Of a stretch of DNA of 64,000 nt, positions 36,000-48,900 are shown piece after piece. Made by a program: the position numbers and the translations under genes. Numbering within the stretch: position 1 is the stretch's first letter; every line of letters begins with the position of its first letter. The stretch covers positions 60,851,560 through 60,915,559 of the forward strand of contig NC_134839.1 in the NCBI RefSeq assembly GCF_965363235.1, read 5' to 3'. This DNA comes from Mytilus galloprovincialis. Taxonomy: Eukaryota > Mollusca > Bivalvia > Mytilida > Mytilidae. The notes below the pieces were generated by a model. The model was given only the letters and a program-made list of their open reading frames with translations. It did not search any database and had not been told where the DNA came from.

Positions 36000-36927
36000 T
36001 CATCTGTTGCTTTGGATACAAAATAAATAAAATTCAACAGCTTCCTTATTAAGCAGTTTAATTTATAATTAAATTGCACATTACATATTCTATCTATACA
36101 TAGTAACAATATGCAGGTATATTTACATTAAATATGATAAATGATAGCAATTTCAAATAAATAAGTGCATTTTGCAATGTTTACATAGCACTTTTTAATT
36201 GAATTTAAATGCACTTTCATTCAATTGAAAATCAATATAATAGTAATCAATTATAAAATATTATGAAAAAGGATGGGAAAATGTTTGTTTTAAGGTGAAT
36301 TTGATATAAAATTTAAAGTAATGTATAAATAGATTACGTCTATAACACAACCACTCTTAATTTTCATTTAAAATGAATTAAATATGGATAACTATTTCTT
36401 AAGGAGAATAATTTTGTTCATTCCAAAAATATTCAATCTATTATCTTTTGTAACATTTTATACAGAATCATTTCGTTCCACATGAAATTACATAGGAAAG
36501 CAAACAATCCTGGAAAAATCTATATTTGGTTTTGTTTTCATTACCTTCTGCCATTGGGAGTTAGCAAATAGGATTACAATACATGCAGACATCAACTATA
36601 TGTTTTTAAGAAATCATACACATCAAGCTCCAGCAGTTTCTAGCTAGGTAAATCTCTCATACTTTCAAGTAAACAATGCTGACACACACATAAGACTTCA
36701 TGAAAACAATAGCACTCTTTTCAGCAATTTCAGAAATAATCGTTATTATGATAATAAAAATAATTATTCATTCAGAAAATGATAATTCCTATATCATCCA
36801 TGTTATTTCAGATGAATACATGTTTGGTCTTCATCACCTTAGGTACATTACATCATTTTTTTTCTTTTCTATTTGACAAGAAATTGCACAAAGTTTATGC
36901 TACCAGAAGTTTTTGCTATGGCTCTTA
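36000..36927. other. Intergenic DNA and presumed 3' UTR of TIMELESS
   Basis: AT-rich sequence downstream of the TIMELESS stop. No clean AATAAA on the minus strand was found close by, although ATTAAA-type variants occur near 36195 and 36056. Confidence 0.4.
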
Positions 36928-39900
36928 TCAATCTTCGTCATCACTTTCAATAATGTTTTTCTTCTGAAGAACTCTACGTAATGGAACATGATCATCCTCT
37001 TCAGAATCATCTGAATCTAATGGACCTTGACTGTATAGCGTAGCTGGGAACGACTCTGAAACAAGACAAAATGTTATAGTCTATTAGGACCTTGACTGTA
37101 TAGCGTAGCTGGGAACGACTCTGAAACAAGACAAAATGTTATAGTCTATTAGGACCTTGACTGTATAGCGTAGCTGGGAACGACTCTGAAACAAGACAAA
37201 ATGTAATAGTCTATTAGGACCTTGACTGTATAATGAAGCTGGGAACGACTCTGAAACAAGACAAAATGTTATAGTCTATTAGGGCCTTGACTGTATAATG
37301 AAGCTGGGAACGACTCTGAAACAAGACAAAATGTTATAGTCTATTAGGACATTGACTGTATAGCGTAGCTGGGAATGACTCTGAAACAAGACAAAATGTT
37401 ATAGTCTATTAGGGCCTTGACTGTATAATGAAGCTGGGAATGACTCTGAAACAAGACAAAATGTTATAGTCTATTAGGACATTGACTGTATAGCGTAGCT
37501 GGGAATGACTCTGAAACAAGACAAAATGTTATAGTCTATTAGGACCTTGACTGTATAGCGTAGCTGGGAATGACTCTGAAACAAGACAAAATGTTATAGT
37601 CTATTAGGACATTGACTGTATAGCGTAGCTGGGAATGACTCTGAAACAAGACAAAATGTTATAGTCTATTAGGACATTGACTTTATAGCGTAGCTGGGAA
37701 TGACTCTGAAACAAGACAAAATGTTATAGTCTATTAGGACATTGACTTTATAGCGTAGCTGGGAATGACTCTGAAACAAGACAAAATGTTATAGTCTATT
37801 AGGACCTTGACTGTATAATGTAGCTGGAAACAACTCTGAAACAGACAAAAATTTTCTACTTTGTTAACAATGTTAATGCTGATAATTCATTGAACAGTAT
37901 CATATTTAGAGTTGGAACAGCTTAAGATAGTATTAATTTAGAAGATGAGTGGTTCACTAACTTTTACAAAAATGTTATCCTCTGATCTTCAGGGCTAAAT
38001 GGAACCAAACTTGGTCACATATTTATACTAGTGTATTGTGTTTAAAAAAATGTGTCCGATGAAACCATCTGCCAACAAACATGGCATTAATACATCCCCA
38101 CACCAAATCAGATGAAGCTGTAAAATAAAAGATCCTCAACACTGAATTTCCCTAATCATTAGAATAGTTGCCAGGGTTTCTTTTTAGTTCTGTCTGGCTT
38201 GCTCAAAAACTGTACTTTCAACACACCAAATTTGACCGTGTACAACCAATCATATCCCTTTTGCGATTCACAAGCAGCAGATAGCAATTTTAAAATTTTG
38301 ATTGATTGATTGAGGTATAACCAACAACCTACCACACTTCATGTGGTAGCCTTTTCAGGCGCGGATCCAGAGGGGGGGTTCCGGGGGTTGGAACACCCCT
38401 TTTTTTTGGACGATCAATGCATTTGAATGGGGACCCCCCCTCCCCCCCCCTTGTCCTGGGTTAGGAACCCCCTTTTTAAAATGGCTGGATCCGCCCCTGC
38501 TTTTCACTATAGGATTATAAACAACTGGTGTTTATATGTATATATTTTTCTCAGTATATTGTTTACATTCCCATACTTTAGTCCCTACCTGATTGTTTGA
38601 TTGTAGCCAGAGGTGTATCATCATCTTCACTTTCCTCCCCATCTGATATCTTCTGACGTTTGGTTGGTTGTACCTCTTCATCACTACTATCCCCAAACAC
38701 CAGGGGGCGTTTCTGTGACTGTGATTCTTCCTCAACATCAGAATCTTTATTCTCTGTATTGTCCAGTGATATAACTGGAAGAGGTTTTCCATTATCACTG
38801 TAAAATTGAAGATAAATGTTTGTATTGTATGATTCCATGATATGAGCCTGTACTTGAAGTATTTTCATTTTCGAATTCAGCTGTTTTCGGTTATTTGAAT
38901 AGCCTATTTTTCAGACAAAACTAACCAATTAATTATAAGCTGAGTATGCTTCTATCAGAAATGAAAATTTTGTCTAACCAAAAGGTCAATTGTCATGCTA
39001 TGGAAATAACTGTTTTGTATTTTTATTTTTATCATAAGATAATTTGGAAATGTTTTGTGCTTCTGAAAAAGTCCCTGATGGTGGACACCACTTTGTACAG
39101 GTGAATGAATGAAATTTTTCGGTCATCTGACAATGATTGAATAGTACAATTAATGAAGAAACAAGTGAAACTGTATGCTACTGATCACTGATGATACCTA
39201 GCCCAAATATTTGGGTAAACAGGAAATTGTTGAGTGATGAATCTGAAAATGCATCACACTGAATAGCTGACTTATATAAATCCAAATTTCAGAAATCCTT
39301 ATGGGGTAGTTTCTGATAAAGATGCGAAAAAAATATTCATGGAATGGACTGACTGATGGACAGATGGGCAGAGAGACAGATGTAAAATAGTAAACTCCCA
39401 CTTTTATAAAGTGGGGGGTATAATGAACTTAACAAAAATGTTTGAATAGTACCTGTCGTCACTATCTGAGTCAATTAAACGTTTGATCCTCCTTTTCTTT
39501 TTTGACGAAGAATTACTGGACTTTTTGGCCATTTCTGTATTTGGTGTAGTTGCAACAGGTGACTGAGGGACATCTGTTTCCATGGCAACATTTGCTTCAT
39601 TCTCTACTGGAACATTTTCATCATTTTCTAGAGGAACAATTTCTTCATTTTCCTCATCAGATTGTTCTGACTGCATCTTTGCTTTCCTAATCAAATATAT
39701 ACAAAAAATGTATACCGTCTTTTGGTATGTATAACGCGCACATTTATACCCTGGGTCAAGTTGCTTGTAAGAGGGGTGCGTGTTATACATGACTACAAAC
39801 ATTCTTTAGTCTTTTTTTCAGGTCAAAACTCTGACCAATAAATTTCAAAGTGAAGTGAACAGTACGGAATATTTTTGCAAAAACATCGATTGTTTTTTAT

Positions 39901-42900
39901 GTTTTTACATGCATGTTAAAATTGTAATATGTATCGTATTGTTCTTAATTTGTCATGTTTTATTCAAATAAAATACATTTTATATCTTTGTTGTTACATA
40001 TTTATCCTGTAAATTTGTCCATCTGTTTTGCAATCCGGAAATTTGCCATGTCTTTATTAAGACACAATAAAGCTTTTGTTGTCGGTTACATTAGCCTCTG
40101 TGTTCCTTGTTGTCATAACTTACTGTTTTTGTATGTGTTCATCATAAAGAGTTGAAGAAAAGTGTATGAAAATTGAATAAACCACGCTCGTTTTGAAAAA
40201 AATAAACCGCCATTTTTTCTAATGTATCAGGTGATCGCAAGTCATGTGGGTCAGTCATGTGACTTCAAACAGCACTAGAACACACCCGTGATATCGCGGG
40301 TCTGTGACTGAATTAAGGTATATAACTATGCGTAAGCCTTATTTTACTATTGGTATAGTCATCTGATAAAGTCATGCTGATTATATAAGATGCACAGTTT
40401 TCTCTGCTTTCAACATCATTCTGTTTGAACCCATTGACCTGGAACTTATCAATTATTGGTATTATTATTTATTTGGAAAACAAAAGGGCCTGGAAAGGAG
40501 TATTTTTTAATCAACAGCATTGTTCTTTATGAGTTATAAATAAAGTTGAAGTCTTTGATACACTGTTTTACGTCATTCCGGCTAACAAATTGAAAACTGT
40601 ACCTATACACCTTATTTTAAGTCCAGATTTTTAGTATTCGTATTGTCATCTTAGAAAGTCATACTGATTAAAATACTACAATTGGGAACAATGTGACAAT
40701 TATTGAATTTAGTGGTGTCAACCCTGTGATTATGACCCTTGTATATAGCAAAATCCTAAATACACTGTTTGGTGGTGAGCCTGTCAGATTTGAACGTACA
40801 AATATACAGATAAAGTAATAGGTGAATATACTATTGGTATCGGTATCTGATTAGACCCTGAACTTGTTAATTATTGGCAATATTAATTATGTGGAAAACA
40901 AAAGGGTCTGGAGTGGGGGGGGGGGTTGAATTTATTTGATTTTATAGGGAATCAATGAAGCATGACTAGAGTAAGCCCCCCTTAGGTCAGTCAGTGGGCC
41001 TCCCTTACAAAAAGTTCTGGATCCGCCACTGAACAATACTAACTAGAAAGTTTGATAGTGTAATATATATTTTTCAAGACTGCATATACGGTCCAGTCTT
41101 AATGCAAAAATGAATTTTTATGCAGGAATATACTAAAGTAGATGTGGTTCAATTCAATTTTTTTTATACATGAACATAACACTATTGATTAGACACTACT
41201 GCAATATTTCCATTTATTCAAAAGGACATATCTGTTTTAGTCATGAAAAACATGGTTTATTTATTAGCTGAAAATGGTATTTGAACTAGCTGTTAGTTAT
41301 TTCCAGTACTTTTAGATGGGTACAAAGTGTATTATTTTTTGGTTCTTTATTTGTATGCTTAGTACCAATCTGACCTATGAAGTTTACATCTTTTACCCTT
41401 AGTGTGACTCAATGAGAATGCAAACATGATAAACTTAATCATAACCAGTCTGCAAATGTGTCACAGTTAAACAATACAATCTCCTAGTTCACTGAATACC
41501 CAGAAAAAGGCTTTAAATAACAGTATAAATGAAATACCTTCTTTCTCCACCACGTTTGGTCTTTCTTTTCTCTGCCAAAGCCTTTAGCATATCATTCTTT
41601 TTCTTTGACTTCTTCTGTTTCTCTTCTTTTCGACTTTCATTTTTCTGAACCTTATCATGCTTCTTCTTTTTCTTATCTTTCCCCTTTTTATCTTTCTTTT
41701 TATTCTTCTGAGGCTTTTTAGCTTTAATCATGTGAGCATTGATTGCTTCTCCGTTTTCATTAATAGTTATGCCATCAATAACTTCTTGTAACTCCTGACC
41801 ATGTAATTCTGCCGGTATTCTCCAAAATGCTTCCTATATAATTATACAAATATTGAGAAAACATTGATTGATTGGTGTTTAACACCACTTTGAGCACTTA
41901 TGTGCTATTTCATGGCGGTCAGTTTTTCTTATTGGATTGAGCTGGAGAGAACTACATACCTTCACAAGGAAAACGGACAATTCTAGTCGATAAAGATTGG
42001 AGTCAAACAAAACCACAACATGAAGGATTTGAACTCACAACCCCAGCGTTGACAGGTTAGTGGTACAGTATAGTTCAAATACTTAGATAATTCGGCCACT
42101 AATTGAGAAAAAGTTGTTAGATCTGTGTAAAAATTAGTAGCTCTGATTTCAATTCATTCTTTATTTTACTGGATGATATATAAATTCAAAATCGGGTTTT
42201 TGTTTCCACTAAAGACAGCTTATATGAATATCAATTTATATACATATGAAAATTTCATTGAGGTCTCTTGTATTGGTGGAAACCATAGTGATAAGGATTA
42301 GTTGATGACCTAGAACAAGACATAATAAAATTTGTAAAGGGTAAATGGGAACCCACCGTCTTGTTTGTGATTACTGGTGCCTGTGTTAATTGAATCCTAC
42401 AATAAACTTGTGAAACAATAATTGCACCTTAATTTTATAAACTTAAAGTAAATATAATCTATAAGCATGAATGAACAAACCTGTGCATTTGAAGGAGGTG
42501 AGATACCAATTTGTTGTAGAAATGACAAAAACATCTGATCTTCCATGGCTGTTTCATTCTCTTCTGATAATGGAACAATTGGTACAGACACTTCTGATGC
42601 TATACAGGAGGTAAGAATGAAAAGTGCAAATCTTTTTTAATACAATGCAAACATGAGGAAAGAATGAAAAGTGCAAATCTTTATTAATACAATGCAAACA
42701 GGAGGAAAGAATGAAAAGTGCAAATCTTCATTAATACAATGCAGCAAGACACTTTTAAATACTTAATCGATACTACTCAAGGAAAACTGATTTAATTTAG
42801 CTGGAACTCCTCTGAAATCATACAAAGTTTGAAATATTTGCATACTTGCCGAGTGACATGATATTTGCGTGTAATACACGCTTTTTCAACGGTTTACACG

Positions 42901-45900: not shown

Positions 45901-48900
45901 TGCTGAATTATCATTATTAAGTTGCCTCACTAAAATATAGCTATTGAAATATCATTTTGTTTTGCAAGTGAAGACTATGAATCACATTTCTGACGACTTT
46001 ATCATTCAAATTTGTAATTATTTACCATGGCAAGCGAAAAAGTTGTCATAACTCTGCAACTTGCACATCATTAATTGTGTATGCACATATAACTGGATGT
46101 TAAGTGTTAATGTCATTTTTTTTCAGAATTGGACAAGACATGTTTTAAGAGATTGTGTAGTTCTTATTTCCTTAATAATGTCAATTTTTTTTTTAAATCC
46201 AACCTTCCAACCCTATTCTTTTGTGACTGGAGATAGTAGTAAGACATACTTGTTTTTGGTCATAGATTAATCCATATTTTCATAAAAGATAACATATTTT
46301 TACAGCTTATTAGAAATTTCTGTGCAAAGTTTGATTGAATTATTAAATGAAAATTTCAATATACCAAAGGCAAAACAACATGGTTGTTTCTATTGCGTCA
46401 TAATAGTTTGGTTTAATTATAACCATAATTTTTTCCTAAAAATAAAGATAAAAAGAAAAAAAGAATTTTCACCTTTTTGAATAAGATTTTGCATAACAGC
46501 AGTCATGTCTGGAGAATCTTGAGGAGTACTGTCATTTTCTTTATCACTGTCCATTTCTTTGTCACTTACATTTGAATCTGAATTTTCTCCCTCATCTGAA
46601 CTAGAATCTGGAAAACAATGAATCATAGTATAACTTGAATTACTTCCCTTTATACATTAATGCTGATAGCTGTAGAATCCAACATATCTCTGTTATTGTG
46701 TGAACTTTTATTTGTAGGTGTTAACAAGGTATATAAACAACACATACATAAATAACTTTTCAGTAAAGGCATTTTCCAATTCTGATTTAAAAAATTAAAA
46801 CTTTTATTAAAATATGTACAAAAAGTCCTTTTCATGAGTTAAACTTGTGCTTTTTTTCTATGTCATACACATGTGTGTAAGTGACTTCATCGGATTAAAC
46901 AAGCATTTGTGAAATGCAAAGTGGTTTTATGCAAAATTGTATGAGTGAAACTGTTATTAGTTACATTCAAACACTTTTACAGGTAATAAAATTAAAAAAA
47001 TATATAATGATTTCCTTTCATTATATCAATTGAACTTGCCTCAAAGATAAATCTGGAATCACAAAAAAATTTATGAATAACTTAAAACTTCCAGTTTATA
47101 TTTTGTTTTTTACAATAGAAAGCAATATTCGATTCCTGAGAAATTAGTTGATAGAATCATTCAATTCTTAACTGGAAGATTCCTCAAATTGTTCTTGAAA
47201 CTTTTTTGAAAAACTGCACGAAAAGTAATGAAGTAAATGCAGTAGAACCGTCCATACAACTTCATTGATGCTGTGAATCTAGTATAAATCAAGTGTAAAA
47301 AAAGAACCCAAATTTCAAGCACACCACAATGGGTTGAGTTGAGTGAAATTTTACCTGATGCTTGTTCCTGAAATATGAAAGCCATGTGTATTTATTTTTA
47401 TATTGGAACATACCGCTGGTGTCGACATTTCTCTGACTGACAACAAAACCTCCATCTTCCTCGTAACCATCTCCAGAATCACTGTCATAGTCATCCTTCT
47501 TAGATTTCTTCCCACGTTTCTTATATAACTCACTACGATCATTCACAAGTCCTAAACCTAACAACTTTTCAATAACACGCTGTTTAGAACGATGAACTGT
47601 CATGGCTGACATAATATTTCCCAATGGATCTAAAACAAAAGTTTTCTGTACAATTTGATTATCAACTGTTATGTGCATAACACAGTAATGAGGCTTTACT
47701 CTTTTTAGACTTGATAAAATAAAATATGAAATTCTTTTACACAAGTCAATTAGTCAAAAAAGAAGGAATGTTTCATTTGTTTTTAAATTGCTTTTAACTA
47801 GAAGCTATGTTATGAAATTGCGTAGAAATATATTTTTGGGAAGGAATTTTCACAAAACTTTAAAATGAGAAAAAGGGGTTTAAAATCTTTTTTGCATATA
47901 TAGAAATATATTTTTGGGAAGGAATTTTCACAAAATTTTAAAATGGGAAAGGGGGCTTAAATCCAGCTGCAAGTTTGATCCAAAATCTTACAATGAAACC
48001 CCATGCTTTCATCTTAATATTAGAAAACAGTGTTTATTAACACACTGCAACATGTCAAACCAATTTCTGCCTATATTACAATTATGACAATAAGTATAAA
48101 ATATTTGTCTAGTCTGCATACTGTAGAATTCTGAAGTAATGAGGCAAATCAATTCAATACAAACTATAGGAGACTTTCAATATTGAAACAACACTCTGTT
48201 GGAATAAAACAGTTCATTTTGCATTCAGTAAACAAATAAAATCTTAATAAGATCCTTTTCTCGTCCAGTTGTTCAGTTATAATATACATAAAAGACAACA
48301 GATTCAGCTAAAGCAAGATCTAGATTTTATTTTTTATGTACAATGTTATATCCTACATTAACATGTAGAATAGTCAAGTATTTAGCTGTAAATGTGTGCA
48401 TTTGAATCATACACTGATCTGTACTTTGTAAGTAATGAGTAACTTCTCACTATGGTTGACGTTGGTTCATGTCTATTCATGGCTGTGCCTTTTATAGCAA
48501 ACTATACAGTATCGTTTTGGCCTTTTTTGAAGCCGTAAGGTGACCTATTATTGCATATATCCACCACATTTTAGCTCTGATGAATAGTTGTCTCATAGTC
48601 AATCATACCACATCTCATTATTTTTATACTTTTCTGAATAGGAATAACTATTTTACATAAAAATCTCCATTTATTTTACCTGCTGATGATTTAAACTCCT
48701 GAAACATATTTGTAAGTTCTTCCTCATCTTCTTCTGTCCATGGTCCTGCATGTTTTCTCCTAAAAAAATTACATCAAATATCTGTTATTTTGTATTTGTA
48801 GCTTGCTGTTTGATGTGAGCCAAGGCTCCGTGTTGAAGATCATACTTTGACCTATAATGCTTTACTTTTACAAATTGTGACTTGGATGTAAAGTTGTCTA

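Follow-up and report, generated by a model that had tools for sequence, protein, structure and literature searches.

How does a gene reach its last exon when the acceptor that leads into it is offered thirteen times in succession? This question is raised by the 3' end of a TIMELESS-like gene of the mussel Mytilus galloprovincialis, analysed here within a window of 64,000 nucleotides, which is the whole stretch of DNA under study. As shown by tandem repeat detection and inspection of the sequence, a minisatellite with a 65-bp unit occupies positions 37022-37850 of this window (12.8 copies, 95% matches, 0% indels). In gene sense, which is the minus strand, the array holds 13 TTTCAG/AG acceptors (TTTCAGAG) spaced by exactly 65 bp, and the first exon bases after them lie at 37835, 37770, 37705, 37640, 37575, 37510, 37445, 37380, 37315, 37250, 37185, 37120 and 37055. 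In each of the 13 units, 31 nt from the end of the intron are followed by 34 nt from the start of the exon. Identity at a lag of 65 peaks at 0.99 in the array (300-bp window), against a 99.9% quantile of 0.39 outside it, so the periodicity is not due to chance, and a search of the genome (1.385 Gb in 331 contigs, best candidates scored) placed the array at a single locus. The first-pass annotation, which had described a 13-copy, 65-bp minisatellite that repeats the 3' splice site ahead of the last TIMELESS exon, is thus borne out by both the copy number and the 13 evenly spaced acceptors.

The assignment of the gene to TIMELESS is likewise supported by a search against solved structures. The ORF at 47289-47753 (minus strand) matches the TIMELESS chains 6taz_B (E 7.4e-10), 7pfo_K and 6t9q_A, entries that we take to be human, and two inner exons joined together match 4xhw_A and 4xht_A, both named 'Protein timeless homolog' (E 2.3e-14), as well as 7pfo_K; the 4xhw/4xht match presumably covers the PARP-1-binding region. 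Judged by these similarities, the gene that bears the array is a TIMELESS homologue, as had been proposed. A Pfam scan of eight candidate ORFs returned no TIMELESS family, its one hit being PF13846 at a score short of the cut-off (E 0.0041). The joined last two exons gave no TIMELESS match among the solved chains but one chance-level match to 2k48_A (E 0.13). For a TIMELESS piece of 84 aa from further upstream, no second genomic place appeared among the best candidates scored, and a processed gene copy with a spliced C-terminus was not found in the genome search, which gave two matches, both of them exons of the TIMELESS locus. The penultimate exon was placed at 38589-38797 (minus strand) from sequence and translation, with the donor ATCAG/GTAGGG and an acceptor, ATTTTACAG/TGATAATGG, positioned by eye. 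The last intron (37056-38588, minus strand) is 1533 nt long up to the real acceptor, or 753 nt if counted to the array's first acceptor. The coding part of the terminal exon (36928-37055, minus strand) reads ESFPATLYSQGPLDSDDSEEDDHVPLRRVLQKKNIIESDDED up to the stop, the first G of its first codon coming from 38589. The join from 38589 to 37055 keeps the frame (G/AG, encoding E) and gives a product that ends in IKQSESFPATLYSQGPLDSDDSEEDDHVPLRRVLQKKNIIESDDED. Only the 13th acceptor opens into this C-terminal exon, which ends in ESDDED. The first reading had located the real acceptor at 37056; the last copy does lead into the real exon, but the exon begins at 37055 and 37056 is the last base of the intron. 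No early polyadenylation signal (AATAAA or ATTAAA) occurs from 38588 to 36928, the first one after the stop being ATTAAA at 36199.

Repeats with this architecture have been described in amphioxus under the name of mirages, that is, minisatellite-like tandem repeats that straddle the border between intron and exon, in Adh3 and in the globin genes BflGb6 and BflGb9, where length instability, somatic instability at Adh3 and concerted evolution were found (PMC3087553). Mirages of troponin C and PGBD5 were added to these, the PGBD5 copies being imperfect and their splicing thought to be accurate (PMC3902484). Many mirage units carry signals that could serve as cryptic sites (PMC3087553), and regular splicing is reportedly undisturbed in mirages that contain AG/GT signals (PMC3087553, PMC3902484). 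In the mussel gene the tandem unit spans the exon-intron boundary in 13 of 13 units, and on its sequence the array is a further example of the published type. It shares its layout with the BflGb6 mirage, whose unit also joins the 3' end of an intron to the 5' part of an exon, and its 65 bp fall within the 10-72 bp of the Adh3 units; its 13 units, in contrast, compare with 6 and 3 in two BflGb6 haplotypes (PMC3087553, PMC3902484). Unlike the amphioxus mirages as far as described there, which belong to lancelet genes and are backed by RT-PCR, the mussel array is described from sequence and lies on a terminal exon, so that the choice of an upstream copy alters the C-terminus without involving a downstream junction. 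Intron gain by tandem genomic duplication, as reported for a potato RdRp gene (PMC4974935), also involves a tandem duplication inside a gene; there, however, a new intron arises, whereas the TIMELESS copies sit inside an existing one. Prawn lectins (PMC7536079) combine coding repeats with alternative acceptors, but not with a repeated splice site, and they were set aside. A literature search, made mostly among papers readable without subscription, returned no bivalve counterpart, and comparison of the unit core with viral_contigs and genome_contigs gave 0 matches each, which is little informative since these collections are viral and prokaryotic.

Can the splicing signals themselves tell the real acceptor from its copies? 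Acceptors and donors were scored with frequency matrices. Units 2-13 score 3.65 each and unit 1 scores 3.68, and the acceptor core is identical in 12 of the 13 units (2-13); therefore, the real acceptor cannot be singled out by signal strength, and the expectation that up to 13 near-identical acceptors are on offer was confirmed. Ten acceptors chosen by eye from this gene range from -3.28 to 5.59, two of them above the units. The acceptor matrix discriminates poorly, as a CCAG found 12 nt inside every unit also reaches 3.47-4.18. This CCAG, which also lies 12 nt inside the real exon (37043, minus strand), has an acceptor-like score of its own, and splicing to it would shorten the exon by 12 nt in frame. 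The branch-like motif that had been attributed to every unit is found as ACTATAAC before 11 of the 13 acceptors, but is absent from unit 1 and replaced by ACTATTAC in unit 11. Local RNA folding and accessibility were much alike across the 13 units and did not set unit 13 apart, leaving a choice of acceptor by RNA folding unsupported.

A difference does exist downstream of the repeated part. The 94 nt of exon that follow the shared 34 nt contain four purine runs of at least 5 and are 60% purine, against 43% purine and no such run in the array unit (two joined units checked). We hypothesize that this remainder of the real exon, present only after the last copy, may act as a splicing enhancer, and that the acceptor at 37055 would be favoured because it alone precedes it, exon recognition prevailing over acceptor strength. 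The last copy would then most likely still be the main acceptor in the cell. The equality of the signals weighs against such an outcome: units 2-13 share one acceptor core, unit 1 matches them in score and folding does not distinguish unit 13. Moreover, of two equal acceptors the nearer one is often preferred, which would favour truncation. At the extreme, the array would have replaced the exon, the proximal unit being the normal acceptor and the acidic tail a relic. Proximity and the equal score of the upstream unit speak for this, yet the tail has stayed open and resembles the other acidic stretches of the gene (LIDSDSDD, GDSSDEE and EESEDDD), and we regard such a replacement as very unlikely.

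What an upstream choice would do to the protein depends on the unit. The exact ESFPATLYSQGPNRL followed by a stop is read from three of the 12 upstream units (5, 11 and 12), and the same peptide with one residue changed from six others (1, 4, 6, 7, 8 and 9). Units 2 and 3 (37672-37801, minus strand) have TAC changed to TAA and terminate at ESFPATL; an in-frame stop has thus been gained in 2 of the 12 upstream copies. Unit 10 gives a reading of 55 aa, because it runs through ACTATTAC. The acidic tail is lost in all 12 readings, yet the units are not equivalent, and the first-pass annotation was right about truncation but only in three cases about the single fixed peptide that it had given. In the same way, the first 34 bases of the terminal exon are repeated in each unit as had been stated, but they are identical to the real exon only in units 11 and 12 (2 of the 12 upstream). 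Upstream acceptors may leak, and the result would be a TIMELESS protein without its last 30 residues (LDSDDSEEDDHVPLRRVLQKKNIIESDDED). A message of this type has its stop in the last exon and should escape nonsense-mediated decay.

It is conceivable, though in our view doubtful, that the upstream acceptors are used substantially, so that full-length TIMELESS coexists with forms ending in IKQSESFPATLYSQGPNRL or similar at a ratio set by copy number. The twelve upstream acceptors score equal to the real one, ten of them have their own ACTATAAC, and, as is generally known, added length is tolerated in a terminal exon, where a stop does not signal decay. In units 2-13, 8 of 65 columns vary, one of 31 in the intron part and seven of 34 in the exon part, and the fewer varying columns of the intron part could hint at a kept acceptor function, against a passive repeat; this difference is, however, weak (Fisher p = 0.056), and the copies are not independent. 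The peptides differ between units, which speaks against a substantial use, and the published mirages are reported not to give rise to aberrant messages (PMC3087553, PMC3902484). As an extension, an unstable copy number may determine how much TIMELESS is full-length and how much lacks the tail, with differences between individuals or somatic cells. We consider this unlikely; if true, array copy number would be a heritable splicing dial.

The units had also been proposed to act as cassette exons of 30 nt, each adding ESFPATLYSQ in frame. AG and GT do bracket 30 nt, and the GGTCC form that supplies the weak donor is present in 5 of the 12 upstream units (1, 5, 10, 11 and 12), but the other seven carry TGTCC (5/12) or GGCCC (2/12). 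The supposed donor, AAG/GTCCTA, scores -4.06 in the first five units, -7.39 in the next five and -10.66 (as GC) in the last two, whereas nine of the gene's donors, selected by eye, all lie above it, with at least 0.40 and up to 4.99; among the GTs of the gene region, 377 of 969 score at least -4.06. The intron between neighbouring units would measure 35 nt, to our knowledge too short for animal introns, and the stops of units 2 and 3 would interrupt the chain. With donor score, intron length and stops all against it, the in-frame cassette array was ruled out as scarcely credible.

The differences among units carry traces of how the array has evolved. Unit 1, which in gene sense forms the 5' edge of the array (37802-37866, minus strand, delimited by sequence and unit comparison), differs from the others at 12-16 of 65 positions, has TTAAC in place of ACTATAAC and is probably the oldest copy. 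Mean differences among units 2-13 are 2.27 at lag 1 and 2.2 at lag 2. From lag 3 to lag 11 they lie between 3.0 and 3.9, reaching 3.86 at lag 5 and falling back to 3.0 for the few pairs at lags 9-11. Units 12 and 13 are wholly identical, the exon part of unit 13 (37022-37055, minus strand), which is the start of the real terminal exon, is the same in units 11 and 12, and units 6-9 alternate between two types, a pattern that fits unequal exchange. The greater likeness of neighbours and the separate position of unit 1 appear similar to the amphioxus mirages, where edge copies are reportedly left out of repeat turnover, and would favour the mirage reading; the other edge goes against it, as unit 13 was not left out of homogenisation. 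The interspersed variants and the distinct edge copy, together with the single place on a contig of 115.9 Mb, also make it highly unlikely that the copy number, or even the array itself, is an artefact, even though it is known from one assembly and the draft amphioxus genome seemed to contain one mis-assembled mirage (PMC3087553).

Minisatellites are dense in this genome. In a sample of twenty 10-kb stretches, taken from ten contigs, 19 minisatellites (period of at least 20, at least 2.5 copies) covered 11,081 of 200,000 bases (5.5%), and the window holds eight. Random placement of arrays would put about 5% of acceptors inside one, and some ten acceptors in the gene give about half an expected event, a rough figure that assumes random placement and ignores selection. 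A minisatellite over one acceptor is thus no great surprise. A second array of the same gene (42604-42743, minus strand; 47-bp unit, 3 copies), for which no other genomic place was found among the best candidates scored, ends about 3 nt before the AG of an exon encoding SVPIVPLSEENE and repeats the pyrimidine tract, not the AG. A 24-bp repeat (2.8 copies, 39587-39652, minus strand) lies inside a coding exon and encodes an octapeptide-like ENDENVPV/ENEANVAM repeat, and a 63/130-bp array lies inside the gene at 51149-51553, with no adjoining exon recognised by eye. Elsewhere in the window, two overlapping frames at 6238-7070 (plus strand) look reverse-transcriptase-like to us (YLDD), perhaps a broken retroelement, and an open frame of 716 aa at 59765-61915 (plus strand) resembles a leucine-rich-repeat membrane protein.

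Taken as a whole, we consider it probable that the array is a mirage minisatellite spliced mainly to the last acceptor (37055), possibly with some leakage to truncated C-termini. It would have begun with the tandem duplication of a 65-bp segment that spans the 3' splice site at the end of the last TIMELESS intron; unequal exchange or slippage would then have enlarged it and partly homogenised its copies. The array can be explained without assigning it a function. This reading places a lancelet type of repeat in a bivalve, on the TIMELESS gene, where a coding stretch shares its sequence with non-coding copies, two of them carrying a stop codon. The locus would also offer a natural test of how the spliceosome chooses among 13 equally scoring acceptors, with only the tail of the protein at stake.
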